Positions 4,240-28,454 of a stretch of 41,883 nucleotides of DNA are shown here, piece by piece. The notes under the pieces were generated by a model. It was given only the letters and a program-made list of their open reading frames with translations. It did no database searches and had not been told where the DNA came from. Source of the stretch: a virus; the IMG/VR virus record IMGVR_UViG_3300034198_006958, positions 1 to 41,883 of that record, one strand, 5' to 3'. A program made the position numbers and the translations under genes. How positions within the stretch are numbered: position 1 is the first letter of the stretch; each line of letters starts with the position of its first letter.

Positions 4240-5949
4240 TTATTGTCCCTGAGCATTACCTTGACTAGCTGACGGAGGCAGTGTTTGTCCAGATAAACCT
4301 TCATAGGTAGCGTTGGCAGCTTCAGGCGTAGCGGTAGCCACCTTGGTAGCTGCTTGGATGCCAGCAGGAGCCATCTTCTCCATCATCTGCATCTGTTGAG
4401 CCTGTTGCTGCTCTTCTTGAATTTCCTCAGGGGTTCGGATCAATCCTTCGGCATCAATACCAAGAGCTGCTGCCCTACGGTTGAGATACTCAGTCTGATT
4501 GATAAGCTGGAGAGCCTGAGGGCCGAGAGCCTGTGCAATCCCTGCAATGAACTGGTCTAGCTTGTTGAGGTCGTTGCCTCGTCCAAGAGCTTCCACACCA
4601 GTAACGATGAGAGGCTTGACGAGCTTCTTAGGCAGCTCCGGAAGTTTTTTCTGCTTAGAAAGCCGATCCAGAAGGATGGTAACCAGAGGCAGCTGAAATT
4701 CTTGAGAGAGGATTGAGTAGGCTCCACCAAGGGAGGACTCCAATTCCTGAGCCATGTACCGGATCTCCTCAGCGGTAACACGCTCACCATTACGTTGAAT
4801 AGCGGTGTTGAGAAGGAAGGCAAAGGAAAGGCGGGTGGTGATGTCAGCAATCACCTGATTCACCACGGAGAGGTCAGCCCTTTTCTCCACCTGAAGGGCA
4901 GTGACATCGGTAGTCTTGCCTGAGATAAAGGCTCCGTTGGGAGCGGAGGCCAGATCCTTGATCTTTGTAGTTCCGGTGGGATCCACCATAAAGACCACCT
5001 TAGAGGCAGCAGCAGTGGCCTGAATCACGCCTTGGGAGAGAGCTTCCAGAGCCTTGAGGTCTCCCATGTACTCTTCCACGAATCCACGTCCGTAATCCTC
5101 GCCGTCGATGCGAACAAGCCGAAGAGCCATCCAAGGCAGCTTGTCGAGTGGGTAGGTTCCACGGGTAGAGGGGATGATCTCTCCAGCGATCTCCTGATAG
5201 ACCTCCCACTTCTTCCCGTCTTCAGCCAGCATCACACAGGTGTACAACTCAAGGTTGTTCTCCATGCTCTCGTTCTGCTTCTGCTCACCTTCGATGGGAG
5301 CATTCTCCATAGCGTCAACAAACTCCTTAACTTCAGGAGGAAGAGCAGCAGGAGCGATAGATTCCTTGACGGAAATCTTGACCACATTTCCCGTCTTGTC
5401 CCTCTTCACCCCGTAGGTGTCGAGACGGAACACTCGCATACCTCCCTCATCAGGGAAGTAGAGGAGGACATTTCCAGCCACGATAAGCTGACGGAGAGCC
5501 TCGTAGGTTCCCACTCGGATAGAACTTCCTTCAATATCCTTGGAAGCAATTCGCTCTACCTTGGAGAGGGCTTTCTCCATTTCAGTCTTGAGCTTCTGGA
5601 CGTCAGCGGCTGAGGTTTCCTTAGGAAGATCCTTCATCAGTTGGGTCTCCTCCACCGAGAGACGGAAGAAAGGAGCGTTTGGAGGGAGAAGAGCCAGCAT
5701 CAGCTTGGATGCCAGATTGTTGACCCCACGGGCTCCGATGGACTGATAGGGTGTAGGGTAGACGGTGGAGTAGTTATGCCCCTGAGGAGGCATGAGGGTG
5801 GGGATCGTCAGCTCAGCAGCGTCACGAGCCCTACGGAGGAACGTGAACCTCTGAGTTTCCAGCGACGAGTACAGGGATTTAGCTGAGCCATAGTCCTCAG
5901 GACGCTCAGTCTTTTCAGTAGCAATAGAGACTCTCGATGTTTCAGCCAT
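4240..5949 (-). CDS. Portal (head-tail connector) protein (T7 gp8-like)
   Basis: The 569-residue protein forms the dodecameric ring at one vertex through which DNA is packaged. The family signature is clear at the N terminus (YSSLETQRFTFLRRARDAAE, LTIPTLMPPQG, GARGVNNLASKLMLALLPP) and centre (EDYGRGFVEEYMGDLKALE, ERVTAEEIRYMAQELESSLG). T7 gp8 has 536 residues. The C terminus is Gln/Ala-rich and low in complexity. The start ATG overlaps the stop of the preceding 80-codon gene (TAATG), with no Shine-Dalgarno site, suggesting coupled translation. Confidence 0.95.
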   Translation of the reverse strand: MAETSRVSIATEKTERPEDYGSAKSLYSSLETQRFTFLRRARDAAELTIPTLMPPQGHNYSTVYPTPYQSIGARGVNNLASKLMLALLPPNAPFFRLSVEETQLMKDLPKETSAADVQKLKTEMEKALSKVERIASKDIEGSSIRVGTYEALRQLIVAGNVLLYFPDEGGMRVFRLDTYGVKRDKTGNVVKISVKESIAPAALPPEVKEFVDAMENAPIEGEQKQNESMENNLELYTCVMLAEDGKKWEVYQEIAGEIIPSTRGTYPLDKLPWMALRLVRIDGEDYGRGFVEEYMGDLKALEALSQGVIQATAAASKVVFMVDPTGTTKIKDLASAPNGAFISGKTTDVTALQVEKRADLSVVNQVIADITTRLSFAFLLNTAIQRNGERVTAEEIRYMAQELESSLGGAYSILSQEFQLPLVTILLDRLSKQKKLPELPKKLVKPLIVTGVEALGRGNDLNKLDQFIAGIAQALGPQALQLINQTEYLNRRAAALGIDAEGLIRTPEEIQEEQQQAQQMQMMEKMAPAGIQAATKVATATPEAANATYEGLSGQTLPPSASQGNAQGQ

Positions 5950-6191
5950 TACTCGGTGATTTCTGTGATCCAGTCGGGAAGAGCGACTTCAGGATCAAGC
6001 AAGGCTTGCCACTTATAATAGAGAGGTTCTCCGACTCCGTCTCCTTGTTCCGTGTAAGACGAGTAGATAGGCCACGGAGCGATTGAAACCCCCCATATCT
6101 CATCACGAGTACGAGTATGGAATTCATCATCCCAGCTCTTCCAAGGGATCGATGAGGCATCCTGTAGTGTTTGGGCTATAAATGTTCTCAT
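5949..6191 (-). CDS. Conserved-looking 80-residue protein upstream of portal
   Basis: I do not recognise this protein. It is acidic and aromatic-rich, with WKSWDDEFHTRTRDEIWGV and PLYYKWQALLDPEVALPDWI, and no membrane span. It overlaps the portal start by one nucleotide and follows the lectin-like gene by 3 nt, so it is co-transcribed with virion genes and is probably a minor structural or assembly factor. A different frame over the same DNA (to 6160) is open but less protein-like and breaks the tight junction. Confidence 0.6.
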   Translation of the reverse strand: MRTFIAQTLQDASSIPWKSWDDEFHTRTRDEIWGVSIAPWPIYSSYTEQGDGVGEPLYYKWQALLDPEVALPDWITEITE

Positions 6192-18872: not shown

Positions 18873-19901
18873 TTACTTGTTTGGGTTGTTCTCTAGTACT
18901 TTGACCGCATCGAATAGCTGCTGTGGGGCGAGGTGTGCGTACCTCAGGGTGATGGCAAGGGACTTGTGACCCAGCCACTCCTTGACGGTGAGGATAGGCA
19001 CTCCCCTTTGGACGAGGCGAGAGGCACAGGTGTGACGAAGAGCGTGAGGGACAAACTGGTCATCCTTGTCCAGCCCCATAGCCCTTCGGACGATGACCCA
19101 CTTGTGGTTGAAGGTGGTCTGCTTGATCTCTGAGAACGGGCCTTTCCCTCCTAGCCCCAGAACCTCAATCTCGTTGAGCATATCCATCACCCTTGTGGTC
19201 ACTGGGATGGATCGTGCCTGTCCGTTCTTGGTGTCCCAGAACCTTACGAGCTTGTGCTGGGAATCGATGTCCCTCCACTCCAGCTTGAGAGCCTCACCTA
19301 CACGGGCTCCGGTATCGACAAGGAAGAGGCACAGGGTGGAGAGGTCATGGGATCCCATGTCAGTGAACCGCTGTAGAAGCTCAGCCTCCTCAGCATCACT
19401 CAGCCACCGGAGACGATTCAAGGGCTCCTGCTTCCGCTCGATCATGGGGAGCTTCTCAATCCACCCACGAGCATGGGCAAACCGTAGCATCTTGGAGATA
19501 GCAGCCAGCTTGCGGTTGATCGTTCCGTCCCCATTACCCTTTCCCTGCAGGGTAGCGATGAAGGCATCGATGCTATCGGTGGTGATATGCCGATATGGAT
19601 TGTTCAGGCCGAAATGATCCAACACTGCCTTGCAGTTGACCTTGACTGACTTCTCCCCCTTACTGCCCTTCCACACTCGGTTGTAGACAACGCTATAAAG
19701 CTCAAGCCAAGTGTTAGGGGATGATGTGTCGGGAACGGTGATCGATGGGATCTGGTTGTTCTTGGGGATCTTCCTAGCTTCTTGATCCTTGATCCAGCTC
19801 TCAGCCTCGTACTTGTCGAGGAAGTCTTTGCGGATTCTCCTGCCATTGACCATGACGGAGGCTTGGAATCGACCGTTGGGACGGGATGTGATGGTTGCCA
19901 T
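18873..19901 (-). CDS. int: Tyrosine integrase
   Basis: Start placed at the ATG at 19901 (MATITSRPNGRFQASVMVNG); the upstream extension is a low-complexity CxCxS/TTTTT stretch. The 342-residue protein has an N-terminal arm-type DNA-binding domain, a SAM-like core-binding domain (about residues 55-150) and a catalytic domain with Arg200 (DTGARVGEAL), His286 and Arg289 (HALRHT), His312 (LGHKSL) and Tyr321 (RYAHL), the complete active set. It would insert the phage into the host at the tRNA-Leu-like core at 16864-16904. It lies after the MarR-like gene and before the small-gene chain. Confidence 0.95.
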   Translation of the reverse strand: MATITSRPNGRFQASVMVNGRRIRKDFLDKYEAESWIKDQEARKIPKNNQIPSITVPDTSSPNTWLELYSVVYNRVWKGSKGEKSVKVNCKAVLDHFGLNNPYRHITTDSIDAFIATLQGKGNGDGTINRKLAAISKMLRFAHARGWIEKLPMIERKQEPLNRLRWLSDAEEAELLQRFTDMGSHDLSTLCLFLVDTGARVGEALKLEWRDIDSQHKLVRFWDTKNGQARSIPVTTRVMDMLNEIEVLGLGGKGPFSEIKQTTFNHKWVIVRRAMGLDKDDQFVPHALRHTCASRLVQRGVPILTVKEWLGHKSLAITLRYAHLAPQQLFDAVKVLENNPNK

Positions 19902-19974
19902 TTTGTATCTTCTTTTGGTGGTGGTTGTGGTTTGGTCGGACTCGCACTCGCAATGCTCATCCAACCGTGGACGC

Positions 19975-20004
19975 ATCCTATGACGAGGTGGATGAATGGG
20001 TCAA
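19975..20004 (-). promoter_or_regulatory. Possible sigma70-like promoter for integrase
   Basis: On the minus strand, TTGACC (20004-19999) is followed after 18 bp by TAGGAT (19980-19975), about 75 bp before the integrase start in the MarR-integrase gap. Match to consensus is moderate (5/6 and 4/6). Confidence 0.35.
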
Positions 20005-24507: not shown

Positions 24508-25104
24508 ATGATTCAGACCAACCTACAACCAAAGCATAAGCGTGGAGATGTTCGAGAGGACGGCTACATTTTTCGGAAATACAGAAAACGTACCTCAAAG
24601 ACCACTAGTGAAGTAAAGATTTTGGAAGAGTGGGCTTCTCCAGCAGTCTATGAAAGGGAGAAGGAAACCGCTTGTAAACGAGCTAAGGACTGGCAGAAGG
24701 CTAATCCTGAAAAAGCTAAAGCAAGGCTTCGTAAATGGCAAAAGGCGAACCCTGAGAGGTGCAGAGCATTTCGCTATGAATGGCAAAAAGCAAACCCTGA
24801 TAAGCACAAAGAAGCCTCTCGTAACTGGCAAAAAGCCAACCAAGACAAAGTGAACGAGATAGCAGCCCGTAGGAGGGCCAGAGAGAGGCAGACCTCATCA
24901 TCCCTCACCCACGATGAGAAACTCATTTCTAGGGCCATCTACGGGGCTTCCAGACGCATATCTGAGTGCATTGGTATCCAGCACCATATTGACCACATCG
25001 TCCCCATAGCCAGAGGAGGGGCTCACCACCCTTCCAACCTCCAGATCCTTCCAGCTTTGATCAATCACAGAAAAAGCGCAAAACTCGATTTCGTATGCCC
25101 GTAA
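24508..25104 (+). CDS. HNH endonuclease with four 15-residue repeats, next to terminase
   Basis: The 198-residue protein has three parts: a basic N terminus, four tandem 15-residue units beginning WQKAN (Trp62, 77, 92, 107), strongly basic and likely helical DNA-binding, and a C-terminal HNH domain (HHIDHIVPIARGGAHHPSNL, then LINHRKSAK) with the DH, N and H residues in order. It overlaps the TerL start by 10 nt in the same direction. HNH proteins beside terminase assist DNA cleavage during packaging in HK97-type phages, but this could equally be a homing endonuclease. Confidence 0.85.
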   Translation: MIQTNLQPKHKRGDVREDGYIFRKYRKRTSKTTSEVKILEEWASPAVYEREKETACKRAKDWQKANPEKAKARLRKWQKANPERCRAFRYEWQKANPDKHKEASRNWQKANQDKVNEIAARRRARERQTSSSLTHDEKLISRAIYGASRRISECIGIQHHIDHIVPIARGGAHHPSNLQILPALINHRKSAKLDFVCP

Positions 25105-26810
25105 AGAAGACAACCAAACCAACCGTTAAGACTCCTGAGATAGATCCTAGACTCTCTATCTTCAAAAACTTTTTGTTCCTCTGCTGGAAACAGCTGAACC
25201 TCCCTGACCCAACTCCCGTACAATACGACATAGCGGACTACCTCCAAGACTCTCCGAGACGCTTTGTGATTGAAGCGTTCCGAGGAGTGGGCAAGAGTTA
25301 CATCACCTCAGCGTTTGTGTGCTGGAAGCTCTTGATGAATCCGGACATCAAGATTCTCGTTGTGTCAGCTTCAAAATCTCGTGCTGACGACTTCTCAACA
25401 TTCGTGCTGCGATTGATCAACGAGATGCCTGTCCTTCAGCATCTCAAACCGAGGGAGGATCAGCGTAATTCAAAAATAAGTTTTGATTGTGGCCCTGCCA
25501 CCGCTTCCCACTCTCCATCGGTCAAAAGTGTTGGTATCACTGGTATGCTCACCGGATCTCGTGCTGATCTGATCATTGCGGATGACGTTGAGAGCGCAAA
25601 CAACTCCCTTACTCAAGCGATGAGGGACAAGATTAGTGAGTCAGTTAAAGAATTCGACGCAGTCCTAAAACCTGATGGATATATTGGATATTTAGGTACT
25701 CCTCAGACTGAAAACTCTCTGTACAATCGCCTTCAGGAGCGTGGATATAAGTGTCGTATCTGGCCTGCTCGTTATCCAGAACCAGAAAAGGTCTCTGCCT
25801 ATGGAGACACCCTTGCTCCGTTTGTCCTTGAAAAGCTGGAAGCGGATCCAACACTTGTGGGAAAATCCACCGATCCAAAACGCTTTACCGACATCGATCT
25901 TTTAGAACGAGAAGCCTCGTATGGTAGGTCTGGGTTCCAGCTCCAGTTTCAGCTGGACACGAGCCTCTCGGACGCTGACCGATACCCACTCAAACTCTCA
26001 GACCTCATCGTCATGCCTCTCAATCCGACCTCTGGCCCTCAGAAGCTGGTATGGGCAGCTGGGCCTGAGCAGCAGATTAACGATCTCCCGTGTGTTGGTA
26101 TGGCTGGAGACCGCTACTACCGTCCAATGCAGATCTCCACAGACCCTTGGATCGATTACGAGGGATCTATCATGGCTATCGATCCTTCCGGTAAGGGACG
26201 AGATGAGACAGCGTATGCGGTTGTTCACTTCCTTCATGGAATGCTTTTCCTAGCAGCAAGTGGAGGATTCACAGCTGGATATACCGATGAAACTCTACAG
26301 AAGCTTGCAGAAATTGCAAAATTCCATGCAGTCAAGCAGATCATTACCGAGGAAACCTTCGGAAGCGGAATGTTTACGCAGCTTCTCAAACCTGTGCTTG
26401 GTCGTATCTATCCCTGCACCGTTGAAGAAGTGAAAAGCTCCAAGCAGAAGGAGCTACGAATCATCGACACGCTTGAGCCTGTCATGAACCAGCATAGGCT
26501 TATCGTGGATACCAAGGTGATCGAAAAAGACTACCGATCCACTCAACATCTCCCTCCAGAGCAAGCTCTCCGCTATCAGCTTTTTTATCAAATGTCCCGA
26601 ATCACGAAGGAGCGTGGAGCCCTAGCTCAGGATGATCGCCTTGATGCACTTGCAATGGCAGTCGCATTCTGGGCAGAGCGTATGGGTGTAGACGTAGATA
26701 AAGCTCTGGAAGCTGAGAGGGATGCTCTCATCCAAAGGGATCTGGAGGGATTCATGGACAATGTATTCGGACGTAAACCCAAGCCACAAAGCTGGCTTCC
26801 TACTTGGTAA
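25095..26810 (+). CDS. terL: Terminase large subunit (T7 gp19-like)
   Basis: The 571-residue packaging motor has an ATPase domain with Walker A (RGVGKS, residues 63-68) and Walker B (LIIADD, 159-164), then a C-terminal RNase H-like nuclease with SIMAIDPSGKGRDETAYA (Asp363), ITEETFGSG and DDRLDALAMAVAF. The end (GRKPKPQSWLPTW) resembles T7 gp19. It cuts concatemers and drives DNA into the prohead with TerS. It lies on the plus strand, whereas TerS and all other virion genes are on the minus strand. A strong intrinsic terminator follows at 26866-26921. Confidence 0.96.
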   Translation: MPVKKTTKPTVKTPEIDPRLSIFKNFLFLCWKQLNLPDPTPVQYDIADYLQDSPRRFVIEAFRGVGKSYITSAFVCWKLLMNPDIKILVVSASKSRADDFSTFVLRLINEMPVLQHLKPREDQRNSKISFDCGPATASHSPSVKSVGITGMLTGSRADLIIADDVESANNSLTQAMRDKISESVKEFDAVLKPDGYIGYLGTPQTENSLYNRLQERGYKCRIWPARYPEPEKVSAYGDTLAPFVLEKLEADPTLVGKSTDPKRFTDIDLLEREASYGRSGFQLQFQLDTSLSDADRYPLKLSDLIVMPLNPTSGPQKLVWAAGPEQQINDLPCVGMAGDRYYRPMQISTDPWIDYEGSIMAIDPSGKGRDETAYAVVHFLHGMLFLAASGGFTAGYTDETLQKLAEIAKFHAVKQIITEETFGSGMFTQLLKPVLGRIYPCTVEEVKSSKQKELRIIDTLEPVMNQHRLIVDTKVIEKDYRSTQHLPPEQALRYQLFYQMSRITKERGALAQDDRLDALAMAVAFWAERMGVDVDKALEAERDALIQRDLEGFMDNVFGRKPKPQSWLPTW

Positions 26811-26824
26811 AAAGGTGTTGACGG

Positions 26825-26846
26825 GACTAGGCTTCTTTGTCTAGTC
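26825..26846 (+). other. Short hairpin after TerL (GACTAG/CTAGTC)
   Basis: A 6-bp inverted repeat with a 10-nt loop lies 14 bp after the TerL stop, before the main terminator. Confidence 0.4.
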
Positions 26847-26865
26847 TGCTTCCGGTGCTTATGGT

Positions 26866-26921
26866 ATCCCCCTCTTGGTCGTTTTTGTCATGTTTTTCGA
26901 CTGGGAGGGGGATCTCTTTTT
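26866..26921 (+). terminator. Strong intrinsic terminator of the HNH-TerL unit
   Basis: A 16-bp stem (26866-26881 with 26898-26913, three G-U pairs) encloses a T-rich loop and is followed by CTCTTTTT. It stands 55 bp after the TerL stop and should end plus-strand transcription. Confidence 0.88.
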
Positions 26922-27011
26922 ACCTTGCCAACATTTCGGAGTTTCCGAATAGTTCCTCCATTCCTCCTACTCTCCCTTAAAGCGGACTGATCACCCGTAG
27001 GTCTGGGAACT

Positions 27012-27130
27012 CTCGGACGGTGAGGGGAAGAGGGGGTTCTGGTTCCCATAACCAGATGACTCCGTGCTGACGGATAACGGCATATGCAATTCAGCCCTCA
27101 CCGAGAAGGAGTGGTCTCGGTGTAGTCCTT
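27012..27130 (+). ncRNA. Possible structured RNA upstream of a terminator
   Basis: On the plus strand several stems can form: CGGTGAGGG (27018-27026) with CCCTCACCG (27095-27103) closing a multibranch that contains TCTGGTT/AACCAGA (27038-27044, 27050-27056) and TCCGT/ACGGA (27061-27065, 27070-27074). A competing hairpin CACCGAGA/TCTCGGTG (27099-27106, 27115-27122) uses the same CACCG, so two folds exclude each other. An intrinsic terminator follows directly. No known RNA family is recognised. Confidence 0.4.
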
Positions 27131-27174
27131 GGTTGACGGACGAAACCTCCTCGGTAAGAGGAGTCAACCTTTTT
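27131..27174 (+). terminator. Second plus-strand intrinsic terminator
   Basis: GGTTGAC (27131-27137) pairs with GTCAACC (27163-27169), with an inner TCCTC/GAGGA stem, followed by TTTTT (27170-27174). It lies about 210 bp beyond the TerL terminator, so it must serve a separate or read-through transcript. Confidence 0.65.
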
Positions 27175-27323
27175 CCTTTACACTTATTGAGATCTGTCTA
27201 GGAATTGTAACCCTCAGAAACGTACTGAGTCTGTTCAATCACCGGATCGTCTAATCAGGACACCTCCACCATAATCGAGGCAATGAGGGTTCTACTCCCT
27301 CTTCGGATGATTTACTCTGTTAC

Positions 27324-27355
27324 CTGTCAGAAAAAGAACCCATTATTTCTGACAG
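27324..27355. repeat. 10-bp inverted repeat (CTGTCAGAAA/TTTCTGACAG)
   Basis: Perfect arms with a 12-bp spacer in the convergent non-coding region. No T tract follows on either strand, so it is more likely a protein-binding or DNA-structure site than a terminator. Confidence 0.7.
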
Positions 27356-27450
27356 ATGTTTATCCAAGATTCTTTGGATGAACTGTAGATTGATTAGTAG
27401 ACGCTCGGATAATCCCCCATGAGGGGAATATCGTTGCGTATATCAAACCT

Positions 27451-27498
27451 TCCCCCTGATAAGGACAGATATATCAAACAGTGTCCTTTTAGGAGGGA
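27451..27498. repeat. Two-step inverted repeat
   Basis: Inner arms AAGGACA/TGTCCTT (27461-27467 and 27482-27488) and outer arms TCCCCCT/AGGAGGGA (27451-27457 and 27491-27498) form one long imperfect stem in the non-coding region. Confidence 0.6.
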
Positions 27499-27524
27499 CA
27501 AAAATGTTCCCGATCACGCACATT

Positions 27525-27569
27525 CAATAGAAGTTCACGAGCGGAAACAATAGAAGTTTACAAGCGGAA
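27525..27569. repeat. Two 22-bp direct repeats (CAATAGAAGTT..)
   Basis: Copies at 27525-27546 and 27548-27569 differ at 2 positions and have a 23-bp period. They lie just past the end of the late operon. Confidence 0.75.
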
Positions 27570-27595
27570 GATAAACCACCCTAAACTTCCTATAA

Positions 27596-27615
27596 CTCTC
27601 AGTAGCTCTCAGTAG
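27596..27615. repeat. Two tandem 10-bp repeats (CTCTCAGTAG)
   Basis: Perfect tandem copies at 27596-27605 and 27606-27615; the second runs into the stop of the small HNH-like gene. Confidence 0.65.
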
Positions 27616-27851
27616 CTCTTATCAGCCCGATTAGAACTGGCTGATCTGATCCTCAGGTTACTCCTAGCTCCACTTCCCCCAGCAGACAGAGCCTTCTTGT
27701 GATCGATGTCCTTCCCCTTGAGAGCAGCCTTCCCGTGGATCTTGAGCATCTCCCTACGAGCCTTGTTGCGAAGGACACGCTTACGGACTTGCTCAGGACG
27801 AGCTTGATACTTCTTGTCGTAGGCTGAGTAGACGCGACCCGACTTGCTCAT
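27609..27851 (-). CDS. Small HNH-like nuclease, 80 residues
   Basis: A very basic N terminus (YQARPEQVRKRVLRNKARRE) is followed by KDIDHKKALSAGGSGARSNL and ends ASSNRADKSY. The DH, GG, N and N positions fit a compact HNH fold of the kind found in many T7-like phages as short uncharacterised proteins. It is the last gene of the late operon, next to small terminase. The function could be packaging-related, but this is not shown. Confidence 0.65.
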   Translation of the reverse strand: MSKSGRVYSAYDKKYQARPEQVRKRVLRNKARREMLKIHGKAALKGKDIDHKKALSAGGSGARSNLRIRSASSNRADKSY

Positions 27852-27854
27852 GGA

Positions 27855-28223
27855 TTAAGCTGCCGTATTCACACCAGTGCTGGAATCACCTGTAGAGATT
27901 GCCAGTGATGGGCGCGAAGAGCGGGTACGTTCTACCTTTCTACGAGCGAGTCTTGGAGCATCAGGAGTGAAAGAAGCTGCCTGAACAGCAGCGATGGTCA
28001 ACGGAACCGGAGCATCTGGAGGTGGAGGAGGGGTGTATTGGATGGCGGCAGGAGCTGCTATTGACGGAACAATATAGGCTGGAGCAGGAGCAGGAGCAAC
28101 TGGAGCAGGAGCAGGAGCAACTGGAGCAGGAGCAGGAGCAACTGGAGCAGGAGCAGGAGCAGCGGGACGAGGAGGCTGGAACCACCTGTGAGGCTGTTGT
28201 TTAGGTTTCTTAGCTGAACACAT
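27855..28223 (-). CDS. Pro/Ala-rich repeat protein, paralogue-like to 7323-7607
   Basis: The 122-residue product has a Lys/Gln start, then four near-exact PAPAPVA heptads (encoded by 21-bp DNA repeats), a hydrophobic Pro-rich middle, and a basic C terminus with RLARRKVERTRSSRPSLAIS. That C terminus follows the same plan as the 7323-7607 protein and as T7 gp7.3/gp6.7-type virion proteins. It may be an extended linker protein of the tail or head. Function inferred only from composition. Confidence 0.6.
   Translation of the reverse strand: MCSAKKPKQQPHRWFQPPRPAAPAPAPVAPAPAPVAPAPAPVAPAPAPAYIVPSIAAPAAIQYTPPPPPDAPVPLTIAAVQAASFTPDAPRLARRKVERTRSSRPSLAISTGDSSTGVNTAA
28081..28161. repeat. 21-bp tandem repeats encoding PAPAPVA
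   Basis: Three perfect 21-bp copies (28081-28101, 28102-28122, 28123-28143) and most of a fourth (28144-28161). Perfect DNA identity suggests recent expansion and likely length variation. Confidence 0.85.
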
Positions 28224-28229
28224 AATCTT

Positions 28230-28454
28230 TTATCCTTGTGCCACCTTTTTATCCCCAAAGGGAAGCACAACCCCCAGCTTCACAGCAGGGTGATCGGTCT
28301 CCACGTTGACGATGATGTTGTTGTCTTTTAGAAGAGCCCTTGCCACACCGAGATCAGCAGGGGTGGCTTCCCCTGACTCGATACGAGCAAGAAGGTCTTC
28401 AGCCAGCTTGACTGAAAGTTCTTCAAGAATGTCTGCTTTGGATTTGTTGCTCAT
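28230..28454 (-). CDS. terS: Terminase small subunit (T7 gp18-like)
   Basis: The 74-residue protein matches the small-terminase type of T7-like marine phages: LSVKLAEDLLARIESGEATP, then DLGVARALLKDNNIIV, and a C-terminal VVLPFGDKK. It recognises DNA for packaging together with TerL. Position after the fibre and holin-like genes equals T7 genes 17-17.5-18. GGAGGA precedes the start, although it also encodes the end of the previous gene. TerL itself is on the other strand. Confidence 0.75.
   Translation of the reverse strand: MSNKSKADILEELSVKLAEDLLARIESGEATPADLGVARALLKDNNIIVNVETDHPAVKLGVVLPFGDKKVAQG

Follow-up and report, generated by a model that had tools for sequence, protein, structure and literature searches.

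A conserved module of a putative modular non-coding RNA behind the terminase gene of a T7-like virus, and its counterparts in other phages

The convergent gap behind the terminase gene

The window analysed was the whole length (41,883 nt) of the virus record IMGVR_UViG_3300034198_006958. Its ends overlap by 87 nt, so that the contig closes on itself. The compared phage and bacterial sequence stretches were labelled L001 to L227. The gene content of the window included a T7-type RNA polymerase, a DNA polymerase, a primase-helicase, a head-tail adaptor and an integrase. The plus strand carries the terminase gene TerL and an endonuclease VII-like gene, the minus strand most of the others; therefore, a gap lies between convergent genes. 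According to the ORF calls, 798 nt separate the TerL stop from the point where the phrog_4590 gene ends, and no ORF of at least 60 aa lies between them. In most relatives TerS and TerL have the same orientation, and they were opposed only in the window, L001–L004 and L088. Unlike in most relatives, the segment 24508–26810 of the window, with TerL and the endonuclease VII-like gene, was inverted relative to TerS. The sister lineage L001–L004 consists of near-identical sequences, and L003 shared identities of 96% (TerS), 94% (phrog_4590) and 78% (TerL) with the window.

The preliminary description of this DNA had pointed to an 800-bp convergent non-coding region rich in stems and repeats, and every feature it named was present: two plus-strand terminators, a perfect 10-bp inverted repeat, a two-step long stem and two direct-repeat sets (Table 1). 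The block of the first terminator was nearly identical in the sister lineage, and the second was energetically less remarkable than the first (z −1.7 vs. −6.3). Relatives with module A only (L164 and L165, see below) also terminate in CTTTTT. In a generic promoter and terminator scan of 26300–28100, one promoter-like site was found where 1.6 were expected; both terminators of the gap escaped it, their loop or bulge exceeding the length it allows. The 8-bp hairpin between them had no relatives in the self-comparison, and the remainder of the gap (27180–27608), with the inverted repeat, the two-step hairpin and the direct repeats, had none beyond short motifs. A motif like GATAATCCCCYNTAGGG at 27405–27440 recurs in L164, L165 (inverted), L166, L168, L169 and L182. 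By eye, in the relatives it often has TTAGAT..ATCTAA arms on either side, and it sometimes lies directly 5′ of a start codon, as at the ParB-like gene of L166; it is possibly a further RNA or promoter element. In addition, an 8-codon ORF (MFPITHIQ) at 27504–27530 follows a good ribosome-binding-site-like GGAGGGACAAAA, which may be chance.

Table 1. Genes and sequence features in and around the gap (window coordinates).
Feature	Position	Strand	Evidence or remark
Integrase gene	18873–19976
TerL gene	25095–26810	+	ORF calls
phrog_4590 gene	27609–27851	−	ORF calls
TerS gene	28230–28454	−
TerL transcript terminator	26866..26913	+	Stem 26866–26881/26898–26913, then UCUCUUUUU; −27.2 kcal/mol, z −6.3
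Sigma-70-type promoter TTGCCA-17-AATAGT	26925..26953	+	Same position and spacing in L003 and L164
Palindrome in promoter spacer, possible operator (weak)	26933..26950	.	L003 and L164 have different palindromes there
Module A, conserved structured RNA (predicted)	26962..27097	+	Model R1, 142.8 bits, E 3e-31; covariation; RNAalifold
Module A helix	26963–26966/27030–27033	+	Covariation alignment
Module A helix	26970–26976/27020–27026	+	Covariation alignment
Module A helix	26982–26985/26995–26998	+	Covariation alignment
Module A helix	27001–27007/27012–27018	+	Covariation alignment
Module A helix	27038–27042/27052–27056	+	Covariation alignment
Module A helix	27061–27065/27070–27074	+	Covariation alignment
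Module A helix	27080–27081/27086–27087	+	Covariation alignment
Module A pseudoknot	27067–27069/27092–27094	+	H-type
Perfect 9-bp stem	27018–27026/27095–27103	+	Not conserved
8-bp hairpin CACCGAGA/UCUCGGUG	27099–27106/27115–27122 (27099..27122)	+	z −3.6; window only
Small-RNA terminator	27131..27174	+	Bulged stem 27131–27169 and T5 27170–27174 (U5); −16.8 kcal/mol, z −1.7
Perfect 10-bp inverted repeat	27324–27333/27346–27355		z −4.0
Two-step long stem	27451–27498		z −4.0
Direct repeats	27525–27569; 27439/27470

A putative structured RNA between the terminators

A sigma-70-type promoter was recognized just behind the TerL terminator, and its counterparts with the same 17-nt spacing were TTGCCA/GATAAC in L003 and TTGTCA/GATAAC in L164. 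In the alignment with L003, terminator and promoter were conserved and the sequence between them was different. The predicted transcript would comprise about 215 nt (26960–27174), and it is very probable that module A is transcribed as drawn here. The preliminary description had proposed a regulatory RNA of 150–200 nt on the plus strand between the terminators; this was essentially right, in that a conserved structured RNA is predicted there behind a conserved promoter. The palindrome in the promoter spacer has no second copy within the window. Three loci were suggestive of a repressor operator in the spacer, yet palindromes were significant in just 4 of 29 leaders (median p 0.575), and an operator is not claimed.

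Folding of 26811–27200 was more stable than expected (z −3.16; 0/100 shuffles as good). The RNA stretch itself (26940–27180) was not unusually stable (z −0.26; 73/200 shuffles as good), and stability therefore failed as proof of an RNA (z −0.26 and −0.85); the evidence comes from covariation and conservation instead. Alignment A3 contained eight complete sequences of module A, L170 (with an insert) and L172 (5′ half missing) being omitted, and 39 pairs including the pseudoknot were drawn on it by hand. The eight sequences supported seven helices and an H-type pseudoknot, with 95.3% of the cells paired and 15 of the 39 pairs changed on both sides (32 cells). The covariation score was 0.384, compared with 0.190 for shuffled alignments (0/500 reached 0.384), which disregard the relatedness of the sequences, and at most 0.096 for slid controls, which preserve it. 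The test for covariation among relatives proposed in the preliminary description was thus positive. Moreover, RNAalifold gave nearly the same nested pairs from the alignment alone. The pseudoknot is formed by UCCG/CGGA (S1) with CUAG/CUAG, CUGA/UCAG or CUGG/CCAG (S2); both were paired in 100% of the cells, and S2 had two pairs changed on both sides. The palindromic loop core UGAUCA was kept in 8/8 aligned rows. The relatives were retrieved by exact patterns, so that columns within the patterns were not free to vary, a possible bias; in the pattern that gave L168–L172, no constraint was placed on helices H0 to H4, on the loop hairpin or on the 3′ strand of S2. On these alignments, module A is almost certainly a real structured RNA.

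The preliminary description had named two mutually exclusive stems and, as one candidate, a riboswitch-like switch. Both stems exist in the window (27018–27026/27095–27103 and 27099–27106/27115–27122), and the switch itself found no support: the former stem was paired in 45.8% of the cells, which slid controls matched, and two conserved helices make use of its 5′ arm. Furthermore, the next genes downstream are convergent and on the minus strand, and no regulated gene on the same strand follows.

The relatives of module A were collected in several ways. The contig L088 represents a third lineage, which has about 100 nt in common with the window at the position of the RNA. Two exact patterns from this stretch retrieved L164 (the same contig as L088) and L165–L167, and then L168–L172; a third exact pattern gave no further module A sequences. 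With 99–172 bits, model R1 detected module A in ten IMG/VR contigs, one of them the window itself (L088/L164 counted once). Eight of these ten, including the window, had served as training rows, the exceptions being L170 and L172; the weakest match was that of L172 (99.3 bits). Elsewhere among the 58 sources nothing was significant (next best E 0.28), and R1 found none in 154 further phage loci (79 TerL-relative sources and 75 other sources). BLAST searches of module A against annotated phages and plasmids reached no better values than E 5 and E 0.4, its exact 3′ core had no match in the GTDB contig collection, and R1 had none in bacterial genomes (0/1, 0/286 and 0/387, the last two sets overlapping; sampled from the class and phylum of L218 and searched without an R1 positive control). 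With Rfam 15, the window gave no match (the highest score of the region was 18.5 bits with E 0.51, below the cut-off of 60), L165 reached 16.8 bits at best (cut-off 80), and L164–L172 showed nothing but tRNAs at the cut-off. Relaxed thresholds, tried as a way of placing module A in an Rfam family, gave chance-level matches only.

Two or more types of phage are represented at the module A loci, and their TerL proteins are unrelated. One type, T7-like and with a TerL of the phrog_38 type, comprises the window and L164; L166, L167, L170 and L172 carry another TerL, the similarity of the window TerL to that of L170 being insignificant (BLASTP E 0.17). The TerL of L169, related to those of the latter four, matched phrog_2 weakly. 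L166 and L168 encode an 800-aa protein that is presumed from gene order to be the portal; at the cut-offs, neither PHROG nor Pfam assigned it to a family. A terminase or portal-like gene was present within the stretch examined at nine of the ten loci, 5 kb off in L171, and L165 was the sole exception. As for other features beside these loci, a tRNA-Thr (TGT) gene lies just upstream of module A in L088 (5076–5149, minus strand), and many of the arrays described below have nearby tRNA genes. Downstream of module A, L168 (1516–1577) and L171 share a further module, CTCTCGNCNCTTGGAG..CCAAGGGGCGAG, which was outside the list of fourteen seeds used in the survey.

A pool of exchangeable modules

A second element, the conserved, terminator-like module B, has a stem interrupted by an inner loop (GCAUUGAGGG/AGCGACCUGA), and U4-5 often follows. 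It comes after module A in several contigs; in the sister lineage, other sequence precedes it. Of the 51 viral stretches that its core pattern matched, four belong to the L003 lineage. The basal stem stays paired where G-C has changed to C-G and A-U to G-C; ten distinct basal stems were found, six without mismatch, and their 5′ strand was outside the search pattern.

The modules were surveyed by iterated nhmmer with fourteen seeds, cut by eye so that module borders are approximate, in 53 stretches (window, L003, L164–L213 and L218), or 43 once near-duplicates were removed. Over the 53 stretches, about 14 interchangeable RNA modules occurred in 22 orders (the orders counted by eye), mostly closed by B. 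Examples were A, A-B, A-E-B, A-S-E-B, I-E-B-A-B, D-C-B, T-C-B and T-H-B, as well as D-H-L-B, I-K-B, E-K-B, F-G-B, F-B and J-B; B stood alone in five stretches, besides the cut-off L184. In the sister lineage L003, modules D-C-B take the place of module A behind the same promoter. With leaders of 60 nt, ending at the first module, 19 of 37 non-redundant ones had a sigma-70-type site scoring at least 9, compared with 6.6% of mononucleotide shuffles; at some loci the first module was unrecognized and the leader was therefore cut too far downstream. The promoters of many arrays typically end 8–12 nt before the first module. RNA and modularity are supported by this comparative evidence, read from sequence.

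Seven GTDB contigs contained the module B core, and only L218 carried an array; the other six are probably chance matches, judged from their sequence and context. L218, which belongs to a Spartobacteria (Verrucomicrobia) MAG, is phage-like, 35.7 kb long and carries the array K-B. As one contig in one MAG, it is the sole lead to a host of the arrays and points to Verrucomicrobia. At the DNA level, searches of 272 genomes each found module K only in L218 itself and modules T+C nowhere.

Two modules resembled known RNAs, and the others had no Rfam identification. Within module F of L211, positions 5915–5951 matched the abiF RNA (RF03085) with 43.8 bits (cut-off 37). Sub-threshold abiF matches were in or beside arrays in L175, L185 and L190 and outside the array in L178; hence, one of the four matches in or adjoining arrays passed the Rfam cut-off. 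In the class of L218, 21 of 286 genomes contained abiF RNA, 15 of them above the cut-off, and the five ORFs tested next to bacterial abiF RNA were all Abi_2. By the phage arrays, none of five tested ORFs (four of L211 and one of L175) was Abi_2. Two apparent links between bacterial abiF loci and the arrays were dropped, namely one weak match of module J in L222, inside an ORF, and one match of module D in L227 (E 0.056).

Module T was called tRNA-Trp by ARAGORN, with the CCA end present, and no tRNA matched its positions at the Rfam cut-off. In eight closely related sequences, the anticodon loop CUCCAAA was kept and the anticodon and T stems covaried, with one anticodon-stem pair broken in three of them; 98.3% of the cloverleaf cells were paired. 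Module T could be an ordinary tRNA. A second tRNA-like element was seen directly downstream of module B on the minus strand of L174 (4005–4075), L193 (13777–13847) and L206 (1715–1785). ARAGORN called it tRNA-???, and it was barely over the Rfam tRNA cut-off in L174 and L206.

Possible function and alternative explanations

The presence of an own promoter and terminator, no noticed conserved ORF, a complex fold, the exchange of modules and the antitoxin- and tRNA-like modules suggest RNA decoys. We consider the chance about even that this is a modular phage non-coding RNA whose parts counter RNA-binding defence toxins, either as decoys or by mimicking antitoxins. The conserved fold, the placement of the promoters, the modular recombination and the abiF- and tRNA-like identity of two modules are supported by sequence comparison; transcription, binding and a counter-defence role are what we infer. 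Host RNA polymerase would start the RNA at the promoter behind the TerL terminator, and the transcript would stop at the second intrinsic terminator. Its core would be module A, with the UGAUCA loop and the pseudoknot, as one member of a pool strung behind such promoters and mostly closed by B. Each module may mimic the RNA partner of an RNA-binding defence protein, or act as its bait: the abiF RNA for Abi_2/AbiF, the tRNA-Trp-like RNA for a tRNA-cutting toxin, and module A for a partner yet to be found. By swapping modules, the phages would track changing host defences. The wider reading is more tentative, namely that several phage types carry combinatorial RNA anti-defence arrays, in which one host-promoted transcript joins interchangeable domains (the AbiF antitoxin, the tRNA-Trp-like domain, the pseudoknotted module A and about ten more of no assigned partner) and the shared B usually comes last.

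Known systems offer partial parallels. Like module A, the abiF RNA is small and structured, stands alone and has a terminator of its own, and it occurs as module F in the same kind of phage transcript. In Clostridioides difficile, an abiF-motif RNA binds and neutralizes the defence toxin AbiF (PMC12373285). Module A differs in having no RF03085 match, and the array of L211 had no Abi_2 gene among the four nearby ORFs tested. As in type III antitoxin RNAs (ToxI, CptI and TenpI), module A is a phage-borne RNA with a pseudoknot that could neutralize a toxin, and the pseudo-ToxI of phage PhiTE reportedly mimics ToxI. Type III antitoxins, in contrast, are tandem repeats of 34–50 nt (PMC12373285), whereas module A is a single unit of about 136 nt. 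No tandem repeat family was present inside 26962–27180, downstream of which the genes are convergent, and no toxin gene adjoining module A was found among the neighbouring ORFs covered, which were a part of them. RNA anti-CRISPRs (Racr) are non-coding phage RNAs for which mimicry of a defence system's RNA component is proposed, as it is here, but no CRISPR repeat-like unit was noticed. The genome of cyanophage S-CREM1 encodes an orphan abiF sRNA, which the accessible text presents as a single motif beside cis-regulatory RNAs and not as a modular transcript (PMC9964418). A 2025 review of phage small RNAs mentions this RNA and, in its accessible part, no modular arrays (PMC12197685). None were found by literature searches covering chiefly open-access journal papers.

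The main rival to the decoy reading is a regulatory small RNA, in which module A would pair with phage or host mRNAs or control a lysogeny switch. The promoter and terminator, the integrase of the window phage and the promoter palindromes of the window, L003 and L164 agree with it. However, what is conserved is a complex pseudoknotted fold and not one single-stranded seed, and few leaders had significant palindromes (4/29). We regard this explanation as rather unlikely.

The position of module A also recalls the pRNA of phi29, a structured RNA near packaging genes with loops able to pair between copies. Module A is of similar size, and as a part of the DNA-packaging motor its copies could pair through the UGAUCA loops, which all aligned rows keep; a terminase or portal-like gene is by nine of the ten loci, and arrays are often near terminase genes. 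Nevertheless, a packaging RNA is hard to reconcile with the sister phage, because module A is replaced there by other modules although the TerL proteins are 78% identical. Module A also accompanies TerL types that are unrelated by BLASTP (E 0.17) and PHROG, was found with none of the 79 other TerL relatives searched and, unlike the phi29 pRNA, has no Rfam match; a packaging RNA would also fit poorly with an abiF antitoxin motif in arrays of this kind. A packaging function is improbable.

There is similarly little probability that the gap is a DNA-level feature, such as a direct terminal repeat, a pac/cos region or an att site, whose hairpins act only as terminators. No positive evidence emerged for the packaging site or concatemer junction considered in the preliminary description. 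The terminal repeat of T7 adjoins the end of the terminase gene, and all 798 nt here are non-coding, but covariation at paired positions is specific to RNA, the 87-nt overlap lies at the contig's own ends, away from the gap, and is silent on the physical genome ends, and ARAGORN and Rfam found no tRNA gene or fragment in the window. Finally, that module A is ordinary cargo, a degenerate remnant or mobile-element part with no present role, is very improbable: module order varies among relatives and some pieces lie near HNH-like genes and tRNAs, yet base pairs were kept in 95.3% of the cells despite many changes, the promoters stand at a fixed distance, and no transposase was among the ORFs identified.

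Phage-encoded structured RNAs, including the orphan abiF RNA, were known already; module A and the modular arrays appear to be new. Whatever their function, modules A and B are recurring structured phage RNAs without an Rfam entry. If the decoy reading is true, the modules would together list the RNA-based defences encountered by these phages, and every unmatched module would lead to a toxin or nuclease still to be discovered. Module A would then point to an undiscovered RNA-controlled defence system, and counter-defence RNAs could be assembled from swappable parts.
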